Source: Acidobacteria bacterium RIFCSPLOWO2_12_FULL_65_11
Lineage (GTDB): Bacteria; Acidobacteriota; Vicinamibacteria; Vicinamibacterales; CAVVIG01
Reading direction: 5' to 3'
Length of the DNA stretch: 40,908 nucleotides
NCBI GenBank assembly: GCA_001767495.1
Contig: MELA01000006.1
Location: 1-40,908, forward strand
The first letter of the stretch is position 1. Every line of letters begins with the position of its first letter. Below the pieces are notes generated by a model, which did not search any database, was not told where the DNA came from, and worked only from the letters and a program-made list of their open reading frames with translations. A program made the position numbers and the translations under genes. Shown here in pieces: positions 14,693-35,675 of this stretch.

Positions 14693-15502
14693 ATGCGTTC
14701 TGTGCAGCATGTCCAGCGGGTTCTCGTGTTTCTGGCCGCGATCGTGTGCGGCGGCTGTTTTCACTTCCAAACGGTGATCACTCTCAACGGCGACGGCAGC
14801 GGCACCGTTAACGAGCGCGTGCTGTTCACCTCGGCTGCGCTCGCCCAGATCCGGCAGTTTACGGCCCTTGCCGGTGGCGGCGTACCGTAGAACTTTGAGC
14901 CGCTGTCGGAGCAGCAGGCGCGCGACGCGGCCGGCACCATGGGCCCCGGCGTCACGTACGTCTCTTCCGCTCCCATCGACACGTCTGAGGGACAGGGACG
15001 GGACATCACGTACGCCTTCACCGACATCAATCAACTGCGGCTCGACGCACAGCCGCCTTCTCCCGGCGGCCTGATGGGCGGCGCCCAGGGGCTCGGAGCG
15101 GCCACCCGCACGACCTTCAGCCTGACGCGCCAGCCTGGTGGTCTCGCGATACTGCGCGTCACGGCGCCACAACTGTCGCTCCCGGGCGACCGCCGGATTG
15201 GGCCTGCCGGCAACGTGTCACCCGATCAGATCGCCATGGTGAGGCCGCTCGTCGCCGGCGCCAGACTGGCCATGGCCATCGAGCCGGTCGGACAGCTCGT
15301 ACGGACGAGCAGCCCGTGGGTCGAGGGTCCGCGCGTGAGCATCGTCGACATCGAGTTCGACCAGTTCCTGCACGACGACACGCTACGGCGACTCCAAGGC
15401 GCGCGAACCGTCGATGACGCCAAGGCCGCACTGAAGGAATCGCCAGGCGTGAAGATCAGCTTCGACCCAGAGATCACCATCGAGTTCACGCCCACCAAGT
15501 AG
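14693..15502 (+). pseudogene. Lipoprotein gene interrupted by one in-frame TAG
   Basis: The start codon is followed by a hydrophobic signal (VLVFLAAIVCGGC, probable acylated Cys22) and FHFQTVITLNGDGSGTVNER, typical of a small exported lipoprotein. Codon 66 (14888-14890) is TAG, and the same frame then runs on without shift through NFEPLSEQQARDAAGTMGPG to a TAG at 15500. A one-base change from CAG would restore about 269 residues. The part after the stop could be expressed from the internal ATG at 14939 but would lack the signal peptide. No enzymatic domain is recognised. It is a recent nonsense mutation, recoding or a sequence error. The final stop lies in the double-hairpin element. Confidence 0.7.
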
Positions 15503-15550
15503 TGTCCGCCTTTAGGCGGACCTCCAGGTCCGGCTGAAGCCGGACACTAC
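15499..15550. repeat. Double-hairpin palindromic element, copy 1
   Basis: The ends GTAGTGTCCG (15499-15508) and CGGACACTAC (15541-15550) are perfect inverted repeats. Inside are two hairpins, GTCCGCCTTTAGGCGGAC and GTCCGGCTGAAGCCGGAC, separated by 6 nt. Copy 2 at 25763-25817 is nearly the reverse complement. Its left end supplies the TAG of the lipoprotein gene, and it lies 2 nt beyond the stop of the convergent MFS gene. It may therefore work as a bidirectional 3'-end structure. Confidence 0.8.
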
Positions 15551-25737: not shown

Positions 25738-25835
25738 AGCGTTTTTCACAACGCCGTAGTACGTAGTGTCCGGCTTTAGCCGGACCAGCGGGCGGTCCGC
25801 CTGAAGGCGGACACTACAGCGTTGTGAAAAGCGCA
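25738..25835. repeat. Double-hairpin palindromic element, copy 2, inside larger inverted arms
   Basis: The core 25763-25817 has the ends GTAGTGTCCG and CGGACACTAC and two inner hairpins, GTCCGGCTTTAGCCGGAC and GTCCGCCTGAAGGCGGAC. This is nearly the reverse complement of copy 1. Outside the core, GCGTTTTTCACAACGC on the left faces GCGTTGTGAAAAGCGC on the right with few mismatches, so the whole is a nested palindrome of about 98 bp. It occupies the gap between the cupredoxin gene and mmgE/prpD, both on the minus strand. Confidence 0.75.
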
Positions 25836-32303: not shown

Positions 32304-33725
32304 TCAGCGGGTCACGGCGTCCTTGACCGCCTCCAGCGTCCCGTCGATTCGCAGGATGCGACGTGGGCGTGACAGCGCGTCGCCGAGCGGCTGCGGTTTG
32401 AGGACCGGCCGGCCGATGATGGGCTCGACGATTTCGCCGAACTTCGCGGGGTGCGCCGTTGCGAGGAAGACAGCAGGGCCGGCGGACCTCGTCACGGCCC
32501 GACTAAAGCCGGACACGACGTCAGCTTTCAGGTGCGCGTCAGATTGCAGGAACGATTTCAGCCCTAAATAGGCGACCGCGGAATGCGGGTCGAGCAGGTA
32601 GCCGCGCTCGTCGTAAATGCGCCGGATGGTCGCGCGGACCTCATCGTCGTCATGGCGACTGCCCACGAGGTCGCGCTTGAGGGCCTCCAGATCGCCCGCA
32701 TACAGCCACATCAGCCGCTCGAAGTTGCTCGGGTTGCCGACGTCCATGGCGTTCGAGAGCGTGTGCACCGATGCCCGCGGCTCGAAGCGGCCGGTCGCCA
32801 GATACGCCGGCACCACGTCATTGGCGTTGGTTGCCGCGACGAATCGCCCAATGGGAAGGCCCGCGCGCTTCATCATCAAGCCGGCCGTCAGGTTCCCGAA
32901 GTTTCCGCTCGGCGTCGAAAAGGTCACATCCGATCCCGTTGGTCCGGCTGAAGCCGGACCCCACGTACGCGACGTGCGCATGCGGGCGACGGCGTGCGCG
33001 TAGTAGATCATCTGCGGCAGCAGCCGGCCGATGTTGATGGAGTTGGCCGACGTCATATGGCGGGCCAACTCGGGATCGGCGAAACCGGCCTTGGCCAGCC
33101 GCTGACAGTCGTCGAAGCGCCCGGCAACCGCGTACGCACTGACGTTGCCCGCCTCACCGTTGAACATCGTCAACTGCGCTTCCTGCGTGGGGCTGACGCG
33201 GCCGTCGGGGTACAGCACCACGACTCGCGTATGCGGAACGGCGTGGAAGGCATGCGCGACGGCGCTGCCGGTATCCCCGGAGGTCGCCACGAGCACGGTC
33301 AGCGGCTCGTCCCCAACCCAGAGCGCGGCCATCAGCCGCGCCATCACGCGCGCTCCGATGTCCTTGAACGCGAGCGTGGGGCCGTGGAAGAGCTCGAGCG
33401 CGTGGACGCCCGGCTCGACCTCGACCAAGGGAATCGGAAAGTCGAGCGCGTCGACGAGCACCGCCCGCAGGGCCGCCGGATCGAGCTCATCGCCCACAAA
33501 CGGGCGCAGCACGCGAAAACCGACCTCGGGGAGCGAGAGCGACGGCAGCTCAGCCAGCTCGCCAGGCGACCAGCGAGCAATCGACTCGGGGACGTACAAG
33601 CCACAGTCTGGCGCCAGTCCGTCGAAGATCGCCGCGGCCAACGACACGGCCGGCCCGCCGCCGCCCCACGATTCGCTCGGGACGCCCTGAGCCGGCCGAA
33701 AGGCTCGCGTGGTTACGAAACGCAT
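32304..33725 (-). CDS. thrC: Threonine synthase with two in-frame palindrome insertions
   Basis: A 473-aa PLP enzyme converting O-phosphohomoserine to threonine. HGPTLAFKDIGAR carries the PLP lysine K121. LVATSGDTGSAVAHAF, SANSINIGRLLPQ and FSTPSGNFGNLTAGL are the other active-site blocks, and FLATAHPAKFGEI is the C-terminal signature. Two extra segments interrupt conserved sequence: residues about 251-266 (TSRTWGPASAGPTGSD) and about 402-413 (DVVSGFSRAVTR). Both are encoded by copies of the palindrome core. The N-terminus also has about 16 extra residues (AFRPAQGVPSESWGGG). The gene overlaps thrB by 13 nt and ends a four-gene operon. It probably remains functional, since both insertions keep the frame. 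Confidence 0.92.
   Translation of the reverse strand: MRFVTTRAFRPAQGVPSESWGGGGPAVSLAAAIFDGLAPDCGLYVPESIARWSPGELAELPSLSLPEVGFRVLRPFVGDELDPAALRAVLVDALDFPIPLVEVEPGVHALELFHGPTLAFKDIGARVMARLMAALWVGDEPLTVLVATSGDTGSAVAHAFHAVPHTRVVVLYPDGRVSPTQEAQLTMFNGEAGNVSAYAVAGRFDDCQRLAKAGFADPELARHMTSANSINIGRLLPQMIYYAHAVARMRTSRTWGPASAGPTGSDVTFSTPSGNFGNLTAGLMMKRAGLPIGRFVAATNANDVVPAYLATGRFEPRASVHTLSNAMDVGNPSNFERLMWLYAGDLEALKRDLVGSRHDDDEVRATIRRIYDERGYLLDPHSAVAYLGLKSFLQSDAHLKADVVSGFSRAVTRSAGPAVFLATAHPAKFGEIVEPIIGRPVLKPQPLGDALSRPRRILRIDGTLEAVKDAVTR
32496..32518 (-). repeat. Palindrome core inside thrC, copy A
   Basis: On the coding strand GTGTCCGGCTTTAGTCGGGC matches the left half of the double-hairpin element (GTGTCCGGCTTTAGCCGGAC) with two changes. 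It is read as VSGFSRA in thrC, between SFLQSDAHLK and the conserved FLATAHPAKF block, where an extra loop is expected to be tolerated. Confidence 0.7.
32941..32969 (-). repeat. Palindrome core inside thrC, copy B
   Basis: GGTCCGGC-TGAA-GCCGGACC is a perfect 8-bp hairpin identical to one arm of the intergenic elements. In thrC it is read as GPASAGP, a different frame from copy A, just before the conserved FSTPSGNFGN motif. Confidence 0.75.
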
Positions 33726-34666
33726 GAGACCACGCGAGCCCCTTGCGGGGCAATGGAGGAGATGTACGCCTGCGGCTCGCCGCCGATGTGGGCCTTGACC
33801 GCGCGCACCATGGCCTCGACGATCCGCGCGGCCACGTCGGTGCCACGGCAGAGCGCGAACAGCGACGGCCCCGATCCGGACAGGCTGCAGCCGAGCGCCC
33901 CCGCATCGAGCGCTGCGCGCTTGATGGCCGCGAGCCCTGGGACGAGCGGTGCCCGGCGTGGCTCGGCGATCGTGTCCTCGAGCGCGCGCGCGATGAGCGC
34001 AAAGTCCGACCGGTGGAGACCGTCGACGAGCGCCCCAAGATTCGCCCACTGCCGGATGGCATCGCCAAGCGGTACGGTGGTACCGAGCAGCGCGCGTGCC
34101 TTCGCGGTCTCGATCTCGAGATCGGGATGGACGACGACCGCCGTGAGTCCCGAAGGAATCGGCAAGCGGACGATGTCGGGGGGATTGGGATGACGGACCA
34201 GCACGAACCCTCCGCAGATGGCCGGTGCGATGTTATCCAGATGCGCCGACCCGGCGCCAAGTCGCTCGCCCTCGAACGCCGCCGTGACGAGCATCTCGAT
34301 GGGCGCGTGCGCGTCGAAGAGCGCATCGACGGCGACGACGGCCGCCGCGGCGCTGGCGGCGCTCCCGCCAAGACCACTCGAGAGCGGCAGCCCCTTCGCA
34401 ATGCTGAGCGCCACGCCGCGCCGCTCGCCGATGGCGGTGAGCAGCGCCTGCGCCGCCACACCGGCCGTGTTGCGAGACGCGTCGCGCGGCAGGCGGCCCG
34501 CGTCGCCCGTGATGGCATCGATTCGAATGCCGCGCACGCCCCAGGGCGCGAGCCGCGCGCTCACTTCGTCGCCCGGACGCTCGAGCGCGAAGCCCAGCAC
34601 GTCGAACCCGCACGCGACGTTGCTGACGGTGGCCGGCGCAAAGGCCGTCACGACGCGGTCAGTCAC
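33713..34666 (-). CDS. thrB: Homoserine kinase
   Basis: A 317-aa GHMP-family kinase that phosphorylates homoserine, giving the substrate of ThrC. FAPATVSNVACGFDVLGFAL is the homoserine-kinase N-terminus, GLPLSSGLGGSAASAAAAV the ATP-binding glycine-rich loop, and GCSLSGSGPSLFALC the third GHMP motif. It overlaps the upstream dehydrogenase gene by 8 nt and thrC by 13 nt, so expression is coupled. All motifs are present and the length is normal. Confidence 0.93.
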   Translation of the reverse strand: MTDRVVTAFAPATVSNVACGFDVLGFALERPGDEVSARLAPWGVRGIRIDAITGDAGRLPRDASRNTAGVAAQALLTAIGERRGVALSIAKGLPLSSGLGGSAASAAAAVVAVDALFDAHAPIEMLVTAAFEGERLGAGSAHLDNIAPAICGGFVLVRHPNPPDIVRLPIPSGLTAVVVHPDLEIETAKARALLGTTVPLGDAIRQWANLGALVDGLHRSDFALIARALEDTIAEPRRAPLVPGLAAIKRAALDAGALGCSLSGSGPSLFALCRGTDVAARIVEAMVRAVKAHIGGEPQAYISSIAPQGARVVSCVS

Positions 34667-35675
34667 GGCCGTACCGCCGCCGAACGGCGGGAATCAGGTA
34701 GTCGCGAAACGCACTTTGGAAATCGTACATCGGTTCGAACCCCCAGTCGGTCCGCGCCGCCGAATCGTCGACGTCGGCCGGCCACGAGTCGACGATCGCC
34801 TGCCGCTTCTCGTCGACCGCATAGGTAATCGTCGCCTCAGGGAACGCCCGCAATACGACGGCACGGATCTCGGCTGCCGACGCACTGAACGCCCGCAGGT
34901 TGTACTCCGTGCGCGTGAGGCACGCGCGCGGCACCGAGGCCAGCTTCAGGAGCGCCTCGACGCCGTCGGGCATCGTCATGAACGGCACGGTCGTGTCGGG
35001 CCTGACAAAACAGACATACGACTCACCCCTGGCGGCCGCGTGAATCATCTCGGACGCATAGTCCGACGTGCCACCCGAGGGCACCGTCTCGGCGGAAACC
35101 AGTCCCGGGAATCTCACCGCGCGAAAGTCCACGCGGCGCGTCACGTCGGCCGACAGCTGTTTGTAGTGCCGCGTGTAGTATCGGCCGAGCTGCTCGCAGG
35201 ACAGCTTGTTGCACCCGTAGAGCGTCACCGGATGAGTGTACTCGTCTTCACGCACGCACCCGGCGCGCGCCTTCGTCGCGGGATCGGCGAGGCCGTAGGC
35301 GGCGACCGATGACGGATAGACGAACAGGACGGGCCGGCCGTGCGATTCGCCTTGCCGTTGGGCAAACTCGAGCAGGTTGAGAGTGCCCTCGACGTTCACG
35401 TGGTGGGCGGTGGCCGGCGTGAACTCCGACCTCGTCGAGAGCCGGGCCGCGAGATGAAAGACCCGATCGACCTCGAACTCGGCCAGCACGCGCTCGAGGA
35501 GGCTCGTGTCGGTCACCGAGCCCACGAACTGGCGCGACACCCGCCGCGCGAGCCGAGGGTCGAGCGGCATCACGTCGAGCGTGACGAGCACCGAGCCCGA
35601 CGAGGCAAGCCGCGCGATCAGTTCATGACCGATCTCGCCGCCCGCACCAGTGACGATGGTGACGGGTTTCCGCAC
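34659..35675 (-). CDS. SDR-type NAD-dependent dehydrogenase, probable L-threonine dehydrogenase
   Basis: A 338-aa extended short-chain dehydrogenase. PVTIVTGAGGEIGHELIARL binds NAD, FVYPSSVAAYG supplies the Ser/Thr region and LYGCNKLSCEQLGRYY the YxxxK catalytic pair. The C-terminal block IVDSWPADVDDSAARTDWGF closely resembles that of SDR-type L-threonine 3-dehydrogenases (as in the animal TDH family), which separates it from sugar epimerases. Its position beside thrB and thrC supports threonine as substrate. It may alternatively be an uncharacterised epimerase. The GTG start (35675) shares one base with the stop of the preceding gene, and its end overlaps thrB. Confidence 0.75.
   Translation of the reverse strand: MRKPVTIVTGAGGEIGHELIARLASSGSVLVTLDVMPLDPRLARRVSRQFVGSVTDTSLLERVLAEFEVDRVFHLAARLSTRSEFTPATAHHVNVEGTLNLLEFAQRQGESHGRPVLFVYPSSVAAYGLADPATKARAGCVREDEYTHPVTLYGCNKLSCEQLGRYYTRHYKQLSADVTRRVDFRAVRFPGLVSAETVPSGGTSDYASEMIHAAARGESYVCFVRPDTTVPFMTMPDGVEALLKLASVPRACLTRTEYNLRAFSASAAEIRAVVLRAFPEATITYAVDEKRQAIVDSWPADVDDSAARTDWGFEPMYDFQSAFRDYLIPAVRRRYGRD

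Follow-up and report, generated by a model that had tools for sequence, protein, structure and literature searches.

The threonine synthase gene (thrC) of Acidobacteria bacterium RIFCSPLOWO2_12_FULL_65_11 (genome G000; 3,554,754 bases, or 3.55 Mb, in 153 contigs) contains two copies of a short palindromic element, both translated as part of the enzyme. These palindromes are very probably GTAG-type REP insertions that were spread by a RAYT transposase and survived where loops of the protein tolerate an in-frame insertion. The GTAG or GTGG tag, together with the association with a RAYT, places the element in the GTAG REP superfamily. The analysis started from a window of 40,908 nucleotides, which is the whole stretch of DNA examined around thrC.

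The two copies in threonine synthase

The thrC gene lies at 32304–33725 on the minus strand and encodes 473 amino acids from an ATG at 33725. A profile search identified two domains, Thr_synth_N (PF14821) and PALP (PF00291), both above the cut-off. The best solved relative is the E. coli threonine synthase (1vb3, E=6.7e-93). The genome has no further thrC homologue, and the reading frame is open across both palindromes; the protein is presumably an active enzyme. Identity to the closest genomes compared, all from other genera, is at most 75%. In one of the other genomes (G004; L023/L046), a single TAG stop interrupts the homologous gene in the draft assembly.

Copy 1 lies at 32942–32964 on the minus strand (GTGGGGTCCGGCTTCAGCCGGAC), carries a GTGG tag, and forms a perfect hairpin that is read as WGPASAGP. 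Its core at 32942–32959 is an exact match (GTCCGGCTGAAGCCGGAC; coding strand ACGTGGGGTCCGGCTTCAGCCGGACC), with the minus-strand reading TWGPASAGPTG. As single-stranded DNA, this copy folds at −12.1 kcal/mol (z −4.4). Copy 2 lies at 32497–32519, also on the minus strand (GTCGTGTCCGGCTTTAGTCGGGC), and is read as VVSGFSR; both its tag, now GTCG, and its stem have decayed. The core at 32497–32514 is GCCCGACTAAAGCCGGAC, with two mismatches and the reading VVSGFSRAV, and the hairpin is no longer clearly above shuffled sequences (z −1.3). Both copies are single units and not pairs. The preliminary description of this DNA stated that thrC shares its core with elements between genes, which is exact for copy 1 and true of copy 2 only with two mismatches. 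Its observation that the two copies are read in different frames (GPASAGP and VSGFSR) and leave the gene unbroken was borne out. Taken alone, the evidence for copy 2 would be weak, as about 1.7 near matches are expected per 373 kb. Its position in a loop, the remnant of the tag, and the reading argue against a chance origin.

GPASAGP corresponds to residues 256–262 of ThrC and VVSGFSRAV to residues 403–411, and both peptides fall in a gap of the alignment with 1vb3. An AlphaFold2 model computed with 16 relatives has a mean pLDDT of 86 and a pTM of 0.89. Only residues 16–19, 257–263, and 398–414 have a pLDDT below 50, and two of these three segments are the REP inserts. In the model, each insert is predicted to sit between a helix and a strand, and the strand continues into a conserved motif (PSGNFG and TAHPAKF, respectively). 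The proximity to active-site motifs noted earlier thus holds in the sequence, and the model places the inserts in predicted low-confidence loops ahead of the strands that run into these motifs. From the fold type, both loops appear to lie away from the active site.

The REP and its probable transposase

The core, GTCCGGCTNNAGCCGGAC, is 18 bp long with any two bases in the middle. We found 383 exact copies in the genome and none of a reversed-pattern control, so that the genome-wide enrichment on which the idea of an inserted element depended is clear. Within the window there are eight core-like sites with at most two mismatches, compared to 1.1 expected. A sample of 373 kb contained 60 exact and 15 near cores, and three repeats of shuffling yielded no exact core and five with one or two mismatches. 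In the same sample, GTAGT directly precedes the core on its 5′ side in 50/61 cases. The sample of stretches was enlarged to 620 kb for the tag, pairing, and intragenic counts. There, a G[TAC][AG]G tag stands on one side of 87 of the 91 exact cores, and 22 close pairs were found among 69 units (about a third), 18 of them inverted, that is, REPINs. The unit is about 23 bp long and is made of a GTAG or GTGG tag, a stem of 7–8 bp, and a loop of four bases. A second hairpin, CGGGTCC-NNNN-GGACCCG, occurs eight times in the sample (L065–L131) and may be another REP family.

The two intergenic elements in the window are not single hairpins; each proved to be a pair of inverted units (15504–15545 and 25768–25812) with GTCCGGC and GTCCGCC stems. 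With their tags, they form REPINs at 15500–15550 (TAGTGTCCGCCTTTAGGCGGAC-CTCCAG-GTCCGGCTGAAGCCGGACACTA) and 25764–25817 (TAGTGTCCGGCTTTAGCCGGAC-CAGCGGGCG-GTCCGCCTGAAGGCGGACACTAC), neither of which is assigned a strand. Both fold as one long hairpin, at −22.5 kcal/mol (z −7.8) and −20.3 kcal/mol (z −5.6), respectively. The ORF 14939–15502, which lies upstream of the former, takes its TAG stop codon from the left tag of that REPIN (15500–15503).

The genome encodes a single Y1_Tnp gene, a RAYT (Y1/HuH tyrosine transposase; L064:1447–1950) with the motifs DHVH, WQ, and YVLENP. Among solved structures, TnpAREP is the best match to it (4er8, E 1.5e-5). The gene is flanked by two GTAG REPs upstream and two downstream in inverted orientation, and these are the same REPs as the dispersed ones. 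We infer that this RAYT moves the REPs of the genome. The TGA stop codon of the RAYT gene comes from the first downstream REP (L064:1361–1993; contig C123, about 34200–34830). This contig also holds a valyl-tRNA synthetase (ValRS)-like gene with a REP, some 5 kb upstream of the RAYT gene. In G024, a RAYT lies amid GTAGGCCGGGTCC REPs (L106). Y1_Tnp was not detected in seven genomes of the family that have some copies of the core (for example, G022 with 45 copies and G011 with 38), and in these the transposase may have been lost, been missed in the drafts, or not be needed.

Copies inside genes and known REP systems

Genes were called with a simple codon-usage caller of our own, which gave 570 genes and 86.9% coding sequence in the 620-kb sample. 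Only 12/91 of the exact cores (about 13%) are fully enclosed by a gene of at least 450 bp (binomial p about 1e-56). Given the large coding fraction, this shows that the REP is purged from genes. The sample contains 17 credible intragenic copies; two more near matches look like chance. When the frames were tabulated, as the preliminary description had suggested, five of the six readings turned out to be used: VVSGFSRT in seven copies, VRLKPDTT in five, GPAEAGHY and GPASAGP in two each, and SVRLQPDQ in one. The sixth, in which the usual loops produce a TGA or TAA, was seen in none of the 17. The GPASAGP reading requires the loss of TAG from the tag, and both cases carry GTGG. The GTGG-tagged subfamily is overrepresented inside genes (9/17 vs. 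15/94, p 0.002). A GTGGGG-tagged variant, found in 17 places of the genome (L085–L101), is intragenic about three times as often as the rest. Several of its copies are read as VRLKADPT on the reverse strand, and avoidance of a stop is thus only part of the explanation.

Four genes carry two copies each, compared to 0.38 expected (p 0.00015). The hosts are conserved genes: ThrC, valyl/class I tRNA synthetase-like, Lnt, Maf, MqnA-like, and NrfD proteins, and also an Lhr-like helicase, a protein kinase, a histidine kinase, MFS, and PpiC. For all five host proteins compared with a solved relative (1vb3, 1gax, 4p0e, 7ahr, and 5n6m), the alignment shows a gap in that relative opposite the REP peptide. 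The range of readings agrees with the earlier view of a tiny mobile element that tolerates several frames. Its mobility is inferred from the number of copies, from the RAYT gene with REPs on both sides, and from a pair of genomes within one genus that differ in the presence of a copy.

We suggest the following mechanism. The RAYT would disperse the REPs, and single units would land within or between genes. Selection would then remove the copies that break the frame, that lie in the reading that always meets a stop, or that strike the folded core of a protein. Where a copy lengthens a permissive surface loop by a multiple of three bases, it could persist as a peptide of 7–10 residues. Such peptides would need no function and are presumably neutral.

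The tag, the inverted pairs, and a RAYT gene amid the same REPs are the features by which GTAG REPs and RAYTs are defined (PMC3733652, PMC6006769, PMC3116915). Published GTAG REPs and REPINs mobilized by a RAYT (TnpAREP; Di Nocera 2013, PMC3733652; Bertels and Rainey 2011, PMC3116915) resemble the element described above in the GTAG/GTGG tag, the 7–8 bp stem, the inverted doublets, the mostly intergenic location, and the RAYT flanked by the same REPs. Further shared features are intragenic copies, some genes that are hit twice, and the TAG of the tag serving as the stop of a neighboring ORF. The stem sequence differs from those of published GTAG REPs, and so does the host, a member of the Acidobacteriota, probably of the class Vicinamibacteria. 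In the portions of PMC3733652 consulted, this phylum is mentioned only for TIR-flanked tyrosine transposases. The intragenic share is also different. In P. fluorescens SBW25, 14/1067 REP 16-mers overlap genes (PMC3116915), whereas about 13% of the exact copies lie strictly inside genes here. Dimers or groups make up over half of the intragenic inserts in the literature (PMC3733652), in contrast to the mostly single units of this genome.

Also close are the GTAG REPs of Opitutus terrae (PMC3733652), with many intragenic copies, a GTGG variant, and double insertions in a gene (uvrA), although they belong to a different family and phylum. The preliminary description had likened the thrC copies to the palindromic elements of Rickettsia. 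The likeness holds for the effect, as the Rickettsia RPEs, too, are small palindromes that entered conserved proteins without shifting the frame, but not for membership. RPE-4 and RPE-6 are CGTC REPs (PMC3733652), and the RPEs have no associated transposase, whereas the element here has a GTAG/GTGG tag and a RAYT; assignment to the CGTC REPs was rejected on the tag. Intragenic GTAG REPs, double hits, tags as stops, and the GTGG variant are already known (Di Nocera 2013, PMC3733652). The REP family and the host lineage are new; in the literature searched, we found no REP/RAYT family from this lineage.

The same loops in relatives

Alignment with thrC from the same family and from more distant genomes showed that both sites are length-variable loops in which the peptides of G000 are absent. 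Other hairpins occupy these loops in other genera. In loop 1, G017 carries GTAGGGGCCGAC.. (in reversed orientation GTAGGGGCCGACCCATGTGTCGGCCC; 12 copies), G014 carries GGGGCGGAG.. / ATAGGGGCGGAGCTTGCTCCGCCC (five GTAG-tagged copies in G014 and 20 in G016), and G023 carries GTGGCGCAGGAC.. / GTGGCGCAGGACTTTAGCCCTGC (73 copies). In loop 2, G010 has GTAGGGCCCCGC.. / GTAGGGCCCCGCTTCGGCGGGGCC, with 13 copies in that genome and 0 in 26 others, and G023 has GTGGCGTCCGAC.. / GTGGCGTCCGACTTTAGTCGGAC (six copies). A decayed loop-1 copy is common to G023 and G013, which are of the same genus, and G013 is without the loop-2 copy, thus indicating one older and one recent insertion. For the same reason, it is unlikely that G000 and G023 inherited their loop-2 copies from one insertion in a common ancestor. 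The peptides NVAQ[DG]FSPA, which we had considered as ordinary sequence, proved to be a second REP family. A loop-2 hairpin in G017 (GCGCCGGGG..CCCCGGCGC) has no clear tag and was left out of the counts.

A scan of 23 thrC genes of the family found four perfect tagged hairpins, all within the two loops, which make up 5.7% of the sequence; after codon shuffling, the entire genes gave 0.57 such hairpins on average. For the ValRS-like gene, three of five perfect tagged hairpins are in one loop, and they come from three genera and have two stem types. As thrC was picked for its two copies, those of G000 have to be excluded from any test. Without them, there are five thrC insertions in 21 genomes compared to 0.85 expected at the G000 rate (p 0.002), a rough and post hoc estimate. 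Use of the same loops by unrelated REP families across genera has been described once before: in two Xanthomonas species, different REPs lie at about the same site of recB (PMC3733652).

These results bear on three other explanations. That the GC-rich codons of low-complexity loops simply resemble palindromes is conceivable in a genome of 65% GC, where loops of small residues are common. The 383 exact copies against none in the control, the shuffles without an exact core, and the tag and pairing make it hardly credible, and for copy 1 a chance origin is already refuted by the counts and controls. The core could also be a functional DNA word (an uptake signal, a Chi/KOPS-like sequence, or a nucleoid site) that point mutation created and that genes retain because of a function at the DNA level. 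The high copy number and the presence both in genes and between them would fit. Such a word is nonetheless very unlikely, as the gaps in relatives and in solved structures imply arrival by insertion, the core is depleted in genes, occurs in inverted doublets, and flanks a RAYT, and the words found at these loops differ from one sister genus to another.

The insertions might instead have been domesticated, with the peptides or an mRNA hairpin selected for a role in the regulation of translation or in protein contacts. Repeated hits on the same loops in several genera and the perfect hairpin kept in copy 1 speak for such a role, which we nevertheless consider improbable. The frame and sequence of the peptides differ between genera, copy 2 has decayed, and the loops are predicted to be disordered. 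Permissiveness of the loops explains the recurrence without any role for the peptides. Tolerated insertion of a RAYT-dispersed REP remains the preferred reading.

More tentatively, RAYT-driven REPs in this Acidobacteriota family may be a standing source of loop lengthening, with unrelated REP families of different genera having independently entered the same loops of housekeeping enzymes where insertions are tolerated. The GTGG subfamily, free of the TAG stop, would then be enriched in genes partly through one extra surviving frame. We consider this extension possible, though somewhat less likely than not. Two loops, several hairpin families, and intact, decayed, and absent states offer a clean natural experiment on the entry of selfish DNA into proteins, and the growth of protein loops by tolerated transposition becomes testable. 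The data also indicate where threonine synthase already accepts insertions, and they widen the known range of GTAG REP/RAYT systems to a little-studied phylum, here with an unusually large proportion of intragenic copies.

Loops 1 and 2 of the G010 enzyme (L017) also contain short-repeat peptides, QDRQDRQDGQDG and VGHIGQVGQVG, which suggests slippage as a second route of growth in the same loops.
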